This document shows positions 26,385 through 36,418 of a stretch of 47,363 nucleotides of DNA, piece after piece. This DNA comes from a virus. Each line of letters begins with the position of its first letter. The stretch's first letter is position 1. The notes under the pieces are model-generated. The model was given only the letters and a program-made list of their open reading frames with translations, was not told the DNA's origin and did no database searches. A program made the translations under genes and the position numbers. The stretch is from the IMG/VR virus record IMGVR_UViG_3300009176_000017, positions 1 through 47,363 of that record; one strand, given 5' to 3'.

Positions 26385-26648
26385 TCACGCGCCACGCACG
26401 TAGAAACGCTTCGCTTTTGGCCAGCTCGGGCGCGCGCCTTCGTACTCCATGCGCTTCTCGAAATACCATCCCACGCGCTTCGGCTTGCCGTTCGGCGTGT
26501 CCACGTAGACGGCGGACTTGCACGCGCCGAATTCCTTTTGGCAGAAGCGGAAGAGCCGGCCGATATCATCGGTGAAGGCTTCGCACGGGGGCGAATCGCC
26601 GAACCGATAGCCTTCCGTCTCGTTGGTGAATTCCTCTGAGATCAGCAT
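26385..26648 (-). CDS. 87-aa protein behind structured leader
   Basis: ATG 26648 follows GGGAGGAAA. The protein has SPPCEAF, a central FCQKEFGACKSAVYVDTPNG stretch and a basic aromatic C-terminus (WYFEKRMEYEG ... KRFYVRGA). No family is certain. Its ribosome site can be hidden by an upstream hairpin array (26649-26714) that is homologous to the leader of the next gene upstream. Confidence 0.7.
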   Translation of the reverse strand: MLISEEFTNETEGYRFGDSPPCEAFTDDIGRLFRFCQKEFGACKSAVYVDTPNGKPKRVGWYFEKRMEYEGARPSWPKAKRFYVRGA

Positions 26649-26714
26649 GTTTCGTTTCCTCCCGATCGGAGCCGGTTCCCCGGCTCTCATCGCGAGGGGG
26701 AGCTAGGCTCCCCC
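26649..26714 (-). promoter_or_regulatory. RNA switch-like leader, copy 1
   Basis: In the minus-strand RNA, an 8-bp hairpin (26707-26714 with 26696-26703, 3-nt loop) is followed by TCGCGAT, then a 7-bp hairpin with GGAA-type loop (26680-26686 with 26669-26675), then the GGGAG ribosome site (26659-26663). The CTCCC in the 3' arm of the first hairpin (26698-26702) can instead pair with that ribosome site, so the two states exclude each other. The same plan recurs at 26890-26956. Confidence 0.55.
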
Positions 26715-26724
26715 GGAATGCAAG

Positions 26725-26889
26725 TTAATCGACCATAACGCGCGTCCAGCCATGCTCAACCGGGCCGAAATCCATCTTGTCATAATCCCAACGTTGCCGC
26801 GTCGTTCGCACGATGCGATGTTTCGCGCGCATCCACGGCGCAAATTCGAGGAGAGACAGAAGGGCGGCCGCGCGAGTCGTGAAAAACAT
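26725..26889 (-). CDS. 54-aa protein behind structured leader
   Basis: ATG 26889 follows GGGAGGATAAGCAT and ends at TAA 26725, close to the first hairpin of the next leader. The N-terminal half is a hydrophobic helix (ALLSLLEFAPW), the second half basic and aromatic. Too short for a family call; the strong ribosome site and homologous leader support translation. Confidence 0.6.
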   Translation of the reverse strand: MFFTTRAAALLSLLEFAPWMRAKHRIVRTTRQRWDYDKMDFGPVEHGWTRVMVD

Positions 26890-26956
26890 ATGCTTATCCT
26901 CCCGGTAAGAGTCGCCTTGACGGCTCTTATCGCGAGGGAGCGCCTGTCACACGCTC
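26890..26956 (-). promoter_or_regulatory. RNA switch-like leader, copy 2
   Basis: In minus-strand RNA: a 5-bp hairpin (26952-26956 with 26938-26942), TCGCGAT, a 9-bp hairpin (26921-26929 with 26906-26914, one T.G pair, 6-nt loop) and the GGGAGG ribosome site (26898-26903). CTCCC (26936-26940) overlaps the first hairpin and is complementary to the ribosome site. The order of parts and the spacer match copy 1, although stem sequences differ and keep pairing. Confidence 0.55.
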
Positions 26957-27138
26957 ATTCGCTTGCGGTCTTTTGTGACGATTGACGCTAGCTTGCCCGA
27001 CTACGCCGCGTGCTCTGCGCTCTTGCTAGGAGCGGGAGGGATCAGCGACGCATGGAGCCGAACGCCCCGATTGACCGCTAAGTTTTCAAAGAGAGCCGTG
27101 ATCGCGAGGACCAGGGGAAGCCGTTAGGCGTTCCGAGC

Positions 27139-27157
27139 GTCCTCCCGGTGGGAGGAC
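27139..27157 (-). terminator. strong hairpin after 77-aa gene
   Basis: GTCCTCCC and GGGAGGAC form an 8-bp stem with a 3-nt loop, 11 bases after the minus-strand stop at 27169. No T-run follows, so it may be a factor-assisted terminator or RNA 3' end. The remainder of 26957-27168 holds no gene I can support, only a partial CTCGCGAT motif near 27102-27109. Confidence 0.45.
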
Positions 27158-27168
27158 CGATGCAGCGT

Positions 27169-27402
27169 CTAGGAATGCGGACCGAAGGAGAAGACACGCT
27201 CAAGCTGCGCCGCGAGCATTTGCGCCTGAGCGGTCAGAGCGTTGACGTTGAGGCGGAGCGTTCCCGCGTAGTCGCGAAGTTCGGAATGCGCCTCCCATCG
27301 CGCCGTCTCGTAACCGCGAAGCTCTGAATAGAGCACGGCAAGCCGGGATTCGAGACTCGTAACTTCGTCCTCGATTGCCGAGAGAGTTACCGTCGTTAGC
27401 AT
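27169..27402 (-). CDS. 77-aa coiled-coil protein
   Basis: ATG 27402 has AGGGGA eight bases upstream and the best promoter of the window just beyond (27433-27461). The whole protein is a helix with heptad-like Leu/Ala spacing (EDEVTSLESRLAVLYSELRG, LRLNVNALTAQAQML). Likely self-associating; function unknown. As the first gene downstream of the palindrome-rich region it could be a regulator or partner of that region. Confidence 0.7.
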   Translation of the reverse strand: MLTTVTLSAIEDEVTSLESRLAVLYSELRGYETARWEAHSELRDYAGTLRLNVNALTAQAQMLAAQLERVFSFGPHS

Positions 27403-27432
27403 GTTCGTTCCCCTTTCGCTGTTCACGGATAC

Positions 27433-35530: not shown

Positions 35531-36418
35531 GTGAAAAACGCGATCTACCTCTCGATCGGATGCGTCCTCTTCACGGTCGCGGGGGTGGTCGCGGACAGCA
35601 CATCCGGCGGCCTCGCTTGCACCCTTTTCGCGGACGGCATGTGTACGAACGTGATCTACACCGTCCCCAACGGCCCCGCCGTCGCGAAGGGTGAAGAGCG
35701 TATGCAGTTTCAGGTGGCCGTCCCTCGTACGGGCACCTCGACGCTCTACAAGGGCCTCCCCGGCGCCCCTCCGGCCCCGATCCGCACTTGGGCTCCGGCG
35801 ACGACCCCCCAGCCCGGCGACAACTACGACGAGCCCGTGAGCGGCCCGGCGCAGTATTCGTTCGGCGTCGTGGGCGCTACTCCCTCCGTTCCACCGAAGC
35901 TCTACGTGGGTGTCTCGGGTACGACCCAGGTCGTTTTCGCGTCCGTCACGCCAACGTTCACGCCCACCGGGACCACGACCGATACGCCCACCGTCACGCC
36001 GACGAACACCCCGACCCGGACGAACACAAATACCCCGACGAACACCCCGACCGTCACGCCGACGCCCACCGTCACGAATACGCCGACGAACACGCCGACA
36101 TCGACGCCCACGGCCACGCCGACCGTGACTCCCACGGCCACAGCTACGGTCCATACCCTCTCGGTCATCATGGGCACCGGAACGCCCGGAACGGTGGACG
36201 TGACGATCGGCGGCGTGCCCCAGGTTGGGTGCTCGGCCGGGACCTGTAACTACACGGGCGTCCCGAACAGCGCGGCCGTCGTCCTCTTCGCCCACGGAGC
36301 GGGTGGCCTCGCCACTTGGGGCCAGACGGCGGACCAGGGCTGCGACGGCTCTACGAATGCGACGTGCTCGTTCACGATGCCGGCCGCGGCGGTGTCGAGC
36401 ACGGCGAATTGGAACTGA
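35531..36418 (+). CDS. secreted protein with Thr-Pro repeat stalk
   Basis: A 295-aa protein, GTG start. Residues 1-21 are a signal peptide (MKNAIYLSIGCVLFTVAGVVA). Residues about 22-135 form a Cys-containing beta domain. Residues about 140-210 are PT/TPTNTP repeats, a likely glycosylated or extended stalk. The C-terminal domain (about 210-295) has further Cys pairs (VGCSAGTCNY, CDGST ... CSF). A signal peptide on a protein between lipoprotein and tail-fibre genes implies export from the infected cell rather than virion assembly. It may have been acquired from a bacterial surface-protein gene. Function unknown. Confidence 0.75.
   Translation: MKNAIYLSIGCVLFTVAGVVADSTSGGLACTLFADGMCTNVIYTVPNGPAVAKGEERMQFQVAVPRTGTSTLYKGLPGAPPAPIRTWAPATTPQPGDNYDEPVSGPAQYSFGVVGATPSVPPKLYVGVSGTTQVVFASVTPTFTPTGTTTDTPTVTPTNTPTRTNTNTPTNTPTVTPTPTVTNTPTNTPTSTPTATPTVTPTATATVHTLSVIMGTGTPGTVDVTIGGVPQVGCSAGTCNYTGVPNSAAVVLFAHGAGGLATWGQTADQGCDGSTNATCSFTMPAAAVSSTANWN
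35968..36150 (+). repeat. Thr-Pro codon repeat tract
   Basis: An imperfect short-period DNA repeat built from units such as ACGCCGACG and AACACCCCGACC, encoding the TPT stalk of the secreted protein. Such tracts can expand or contract by slippage. Confidence 0.8.

Follow-up and report, generated by a model that had tools for sequence, protein, structure and literature searches.

Two adjacent small genes of a virus record are preceded by leaders that resemble each other in sequence and in fold, which raises the question of whether these leaders are copies of one RNA element and how such an element might act on the genes that follow it. In the initial annotation they had been read as homologous switches, in which an upstream hairpin (hairpin 1) and the pairing of a CTCCC with the GGGAG of the ribosome site (SD) would give two mutually exclusive states, with the SD open or hidden. 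The leader of the 54-aa gene is called A below, and that of the 87-aa gene B.

The phage record and its small-gene cluster

The window, that is, the whole stretch of DNA analysed, is a virus record of 47,363 bases that encodes an MGM101-type protein, a PHROG 2139 exonuclease, an AAA ATPase and a large terminase. From its sequence it is assigned to a tailed phage, close relatives of which are absent from the collections examined. Both ORFs (Table 1) lie within a run of small genes on the minus strand, and their sequences are unrelated to each other. No relatives of the 54-aa ORF were detected in protein searches, and none were found for the MGM101-like protein either. The 87-aa protein had no matches in Pfam or PHROG. 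It belongs to a family of phage proteins that has no name and shares the motif GW[VY]FEK; homologues were found in Salinibacter phages (36% identity, E 3e-8) and, at ten IMG/VR loci, in uncultured phages. These homologues align from M1 of the 87-aa protein, which supports its start codon and, thus, the assignment of the SD in front of it.

A promoter-like site on the minus strand (27461-27433) is directed toward the small-gene cluster, and a search for sigma-70-like sites found no further promoter between it and the two small genes, so that long transcripts, initiated upstream and running through both leaders, are plausible. The region upstream of leader A (26985-27168) is apparently non-coding and carries an 8-bp hairpin, GTCCTCCC-ACC-GGGAGGAC, at 27139-27157, soon after the stop codon of the ORF 27169-27426. 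Elsewhere in the window, at 35943-36146 on the plus strand, a run of degenerate repeats recurring about every 12 nt (for example, CCGTCACGCCGA) overlaps plus-strand ORFs and perhaps encodes a Thr/Pro-rich repeat protein.

Table 1. Positions of the leader elements and genes in the window, and of hammerhead-like leaders in other phage contigs
Feature	Record	Position	Strand	Remarks
54-aa ORF	window	26725..26889	-	after leader A; G+C by codon position 0.60/0.45/0.65
87-aa ORF	window	26385..26648	-	after leader B; unnamed phage protein family
Leader hairpin A, CCTCGCGATAAGAGCCGTCAAGGCGACTCTTACCGGGAGG	window	26898..26937	-	40-nt imperfect inverted repeat; MFE -19.0 kcal/mol, z -3.45
Leader hairpin B, CCTCGCGATGAGAGCCGGGGAACCGGCTCCGATCGGGAGG	window	26658..26697	-	plan and length as in A; MFE -29.3 kcal/mol, z -5.50
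SD of the 54-aa gene, GGGAGG	window	26898..26903	-	paired in hairpin A except for one G (pairing probabilities)
SD of the 87-aa gene, GGGAGG	window	26658..26663	-	mostly paired in hairpin B (pairing probabilities)
Hairpin 1 of B, GGGGGAGC-CTA-GCTCCCCC	window	26696..26714	-	MFE -16.9, z -3.39
'Hairpin 1' of A, GAGCGT-GTGACAG-GCGCTC	window	26938..26956	-	z -0.59; chance level
Hammerhead-like leader, CTCCA-CTGATGA-TTCCGAAAGGAT-GAAAC-GCTGCAAAGC-GTA-TGGAGATGAT-ATG	L091	2935-3010	+ (minus strand of contig)	
Complete hammerhead	L108	7109-7156	-	
Complete hammerhead	L108	7805-7850	-	
Complete hammerhead	L110	2817-2866	-	
Complete hammerhead	L121	7162-7214	+	

Homology and fold of the two leaders

The homology of the two leaders was borne out: 35 of 47 positions are identical in a gapless alignment, and the repeat stands at an equal distance from the SD in both leaders. 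The SD in turn is 8-9 nt upstream of the ATG. The sequence common to them is YCCCTCGCGATRAGAGCCG-N6-CGRCTCNNAYCGGGAGGA. The local alignment score of A against B was 23, that of A or B against the other SD-bearing leaders of the window was at most 11-12, and random leader pairs scored 7.2 on average (sd 1.5). The copies differ at 12 of these 47 positions; for the arms taken separately, the differences number two of 18 positions (left) and five of 18 (right). The similarity drops sharply beyond the hairpin and the SD. Since the downstream ORFs are unrelated, it is the leader segment alone that is shared, having been either kept or copied.

Both copies fold on the plan CCTC-G-CGAT-RAGAGCCG-loop-CGRCTC-NN-AYCG-G-GAGG, and they do so better than shuffled sequences, as only one of 200 shuffles folded as well as hairpin A and none of 200 as well as hairpin B. 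The existence of the hairpin 2 of the initial annotation is thereby confirmed in both leaders, while its extent has to be redrawn, the actual hairpin being longer. The CCTC pairs with the GAGG of the SD, followed by a G.G mismatch, a CG/CG step and the apical stem; the SD is therefore the 3' strand of the hairpin, and the ribosome site is hidden. The computed cost of opening the SD at 37 C is 10.5 kcal/mol in A and 6.9 kcal/mol in B. In both leaders the SD thus lies within a stable helix, as it does in SD-sequestering phage leaders of the T4 gene e/I-TevI type. Occlusion of the SD alone is unexceptional in this GC-rich genome, where, among 72 crudely called leaders, about 10 hide the SD to the same degree or more; what is exceptional is the combination of a duplicated sequence with a better-than-shuffled fold.

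The upstream hairpin and the proposed switch

Hairpin 1 had been drawn in both leaders, but it is strong in B only and hence not a common feature (Table 1). In B it is a perfect 8-bp stem that follows the stop codon of the 54-aa gene and runs 2 nt into hairpin B; such stems are about as common in the window as in shuffles (5 versus 4.65). The counterpart in A, which 50 of 200 shuffles equal in folding, abuts hairpin A with no overlap.

Forced-pair calculations gave no support to a mutual exclusion of states in either leader. Hairpin 1 and the SD helix of A form together at -30.5 kcal/mol versus an MFE of -30.9, and in B both hairpins are possible in spite of the shared 2 nt (-42.2 versus an MFE of -44.1). 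The CTCCC/GGGAG register as drawn was computed at -26.3 in A and -28.6 in B, an excess of 4.6 and 15.5 kcal/mol over the MFE. When the upstream part was removed in silico, the cost of opening the SD changed in opposite directions, falling from 10.5 to 6.8 kcal/mol in A and rising from 6.9 to 11.4 kcal/mol in B; owing to this rise, partial competition is possible in B, where the stable hairpin 1 takes 2 nt of the CCTC strand. That both leaders switch between an open and a closed state through competition of hairpin 1 with the helix that hides the SD is nevertheless very improbable, as the hairpin 1 of A is at chance level, does not overlap the SD helix and coexists with it, the SD of B is still mostly paired once hairpin 1 forms, and the proposed register is costly in both. 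Of the earlier interpretation there remain homologous, structured leaders that likely affect the access of ribosomes to both genes; the switch common to both is not supported.

Covariation and the search for further copies

The stems had also been described as differing between the copies while keeping their pairing, as in a structured RNA. Of the 17 pairs, however, 12 are invariant, four are paired in a single copy and one is compensatory, with both sides changed (G-C to U-G). Re-dealing the 3' letters between the copies gave an equal score in 244 of 500 shuffles, and hybrid hairpins, in which the left half of either copy is joined to the right half of its counterpart, fold at -24.1 and -18.8 versus -19.0 and -29.3 for the native ones. 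Since shuffled and hybrid arms pair as well, the kept pairing is no evidence here; covariation is essentially absent, and two copies teach little.

The covariance search suggested along with the initial annotation added no homologues: the two-copy model, run over the window and the loci of the homologues, recovered A, B and their own opposite strands, all other hits having E>=0.8. A third occurrence of CCTCGCGAT, at 27101-27109, was missed by this model and is treated as chance. Searches of the window, of 2.9 M viral contigs and of 84,980 genomes brought up no further copy; the records nearest to the window may be excluded from these collections, so that a sister phage could exist unseen. Among the viral contigs, the pattern of the left arm had 21 matches, none with the hairpin or the start context, and the two-arm pattern had 63, none of which showed the plan when every fold was inspected; the closest-looking of them (in L026) was rejected, as the hairpin is absent. 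The sole match in the genome collection is on the opposite strand within a long ORF of a Thermoanaerobaculia MAG and was regarded as chance.

Leaders of the homologous genes and hammerhead-like elements

None of the examined homologues of the 87-aa gene carries the A/B element in its leader. One homologue (51% identity), in the 63-kb contig IMGVR_UViG_3300037205_000035 (loci L091 and L101-L104), is preceded by a hammerhead-like leader with a U.U at the first pair of stem II and the SD inside stem I; a hammerhead match for this leader was not among the Rfam matches listed. In the stretch compared, the 87-aa gene is all that this contig and the window share. Hammerhead-like motifs are numerous in the contig: nine were found with a tolerant descriptor and eleven with a simpler pattern, the former finding a single site in 1.0 Mb of other loci. 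Six of the nine carry an SD within the 3' strand of stem I, immediately past the predicted cleavage site, and five have a start codon 10-14 nt beyond this site.

A scan of the viral collection for the hammerhead core with GGAGA after it revealed six complete hammerheads among 19 sites, located on four contigs including IMGVR_UViG_3300037205_000035, while the control scan, with TCTCC instead of GGAGA, gave none among nine sites. In the complete hammerheads on the three other phage contigs (L108, L110 and L121), GGAGA (SD) forms the 3' strand of stem I, and the predicted cleavage site is followed after 10-15 nt by a start codon. At the two L108 sites, Rfam models scored below their cut-offs (RAGATH-1-hammerhead 27.3 and 26.6 bits, Hammerhead_3 25.1, Hammerhead_1 23.7). 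Elements of this kind are already known, since multiple hammerheads were reported to flank prophage genes, one of them 13 nt upstream of a start codon (Perreault et al. 2011, PMC3088659); a description of the SD within stem I was not found in the literature searched.

In Salinibacter phage M8CRM-1 (L089, 4030-5440), a short CCCCCTACA(G) occurs before several start codons at the place expected for the SD, and it is possibly a phage-specific start-associated repeat.

Comparison with known leader elements

The initial annotation knew of no named class with this plan. This holds trivially, as Rfam 15 gave no matches at gathering thresholds in the whole window, with a best E of 1.1 for 26600-27200, but leader hairpins that hide the SD are a known kind in phages, described for the T4 genes e, soc, 49 and I-TevI (PMC3014915). 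The likeness to these is in the burial of the SD within a leader helix and in transcripts initiated upstream (in T4, long early ones) that would carry the whole hairpin. The T4 leaders differ from A and B in that their sequence is unrelated and that the window has one hairpin twice, before unrelated genes; moreover, gene e and I-TevI are relieved by late promoters, while no sigma-70-like promoter was recognised at this place in the window. In T4, these late promoters sit in the DNA encoding the 5' strand of the SD-hiding hairpins (PMC3014915). The search of the A/B element covered sigma-70-like sites, of which none was found.

Cluster K mycobacteriophages have start-associated repeats (SAS/ESAS; PMC3203893), which are likewise phage-specific elements repeated at the translation starts of some genes; imperfect inverted repeats, the arms of which are about 17 bp long, lie just upstream. 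Their copies number 11-19 versus two in the window, and in the clear ESAS examples of Pixie the SD is outside the inverted repeat and mostly open, whereas in the window it is in the right arm. The 13-bp SAS, GGGATAGGAGCCC, had 17 matches in the window at up to 3 mismatches, with 22 expected by chance, and none of them is a start-associated repeat; the sequence similarity of A and B to the Pixie elements is at background level.

Phage hammerhead leaders (Hammerhead_1, RAGATH-1-hammerhead) resemble the two elements in occurring in several copies per phage just before start codons and in a closing stem whose 3' strand includes the SD, and one of them precedes a homologue of the 87-aa gene. A and B themselves were rejected as hammerheads, as neither the CUGANGA/GAAA core nor a third stem is present in them, and the descriptor found no hammerhead in the window. 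The translational operators of T4 gp43, gp32 and RegA also place an RNA structure at or beside the ribosome site, which in their case is the target of a repressor protein. An RNA thermometer was rejected too, as in the model the SD of A stays paired up to 60 C and that of B does so for the most part.

Interpretation of the duplicated hairpin

By analogy with the leaders of T4 gene e, soc and I-TevI, A and B are, on balance, best explained as a duplicated translational brake, with the chances slightly in favour of this reading. The two leaders would be duplicates of one cis-acting hairpin in a phage operon. On a long transcript initiated upstream, the 3' strand of each hairpin would hold the SD GGGAGG of the gene that follows, and translation would start poorly. 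Relief might come from RNAs that, through their start site or through processing, are devoid of the 5' strand, for which T4 gene e and I-TevI are the models, or from a factor acting in trans to open or cut the hairpin. The homology of the copies, their fold and the burial of the SD are computed; the effect on translation, the co-regulation of the two genes and the mode of relief are inferred. The brake is favoured because the repeat is far above other leader pairs, the fold beats shuffles, the SD is costly to free, and hairpin 1 does not alter access to the SD in a shared way. It is weakened by the commonness of SD occlusion, the absence of covariation and the interchangeability of the arms in hybrids, as well as by the lack of relatives with the element and the different leaders of the homologous genes.

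Besides the switch discussed above, the same data may be read in other ways. It is possible, though unlikely, that the 40-bp dyad acts in DNA as an operator or a phage-specific promoter region, the RNA hairpin being incidental. As expected of a dyad, the complementary strand too matches the covariance model, the left arm has fewer differences than the right, as if it were more constrained, and the position of the T4 late promoters provides a precedent. This difference between the arms is not significant with two copies, however, no sigma-70-like site was recognised, and the right arm holds an SD at constant spacing to the start codon, for which an operator would have no use. Rather less probable is an RNA processing site, at which an RNase III-type or phage nuclease would cut the hairpin in a polycistronic RNA and free or destroy the SD, which would also be the job of hammerhead leaders in the phage with the homologous gene. 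The position of the element between genes of an operon would suit such a role, as would the hammerhead-like leader of the homologue in IMGVR_UViG_3300037205_000035 with its SD in stem I, but the elements of the window have no hammerhead core or Rfam ribozyme match, and just one gene, that for the 87-aa protein, is common to the two contigs in the stretch compared.

There is also little reason to expect a neutral by-product, that is, tandem duplication of an ordinary leader with a chance hairpin and no regulatory role. It would be in keeping with there being two copies only, with no covariation and no relatives, in a genome where SD occlusion is common; against it, the similarity ends sharply past the hairpin and SD although the ORFs are unrelated, and both folds beat shuffles despite the 12 differences. 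A bolder proposal, which has a very small chance of being correct, is that the twin hairpins represent an undescribed class of phage leaders that are actively opened or cut in trans in the course of infection, with the same job as the hammerhead-like leader of the homologue; one leader slot would then be occupied by one RNA device or another, and in each of them the 3' strand of a closing stem would retain the SD until its release.

If the duplicated brake is real, it would be another case of phages timing the expression of small genes by means of a hidden ribosome site, in this instance through two copies of a single hairpin in front of genes unrelated to each other. Within the 87-aa family the leader is swapped freely among phages, being plain, hairpin-forming or hammerhead-like, and this family is therefore a convenient place to ask why phages build structured RNA right onto the SD.
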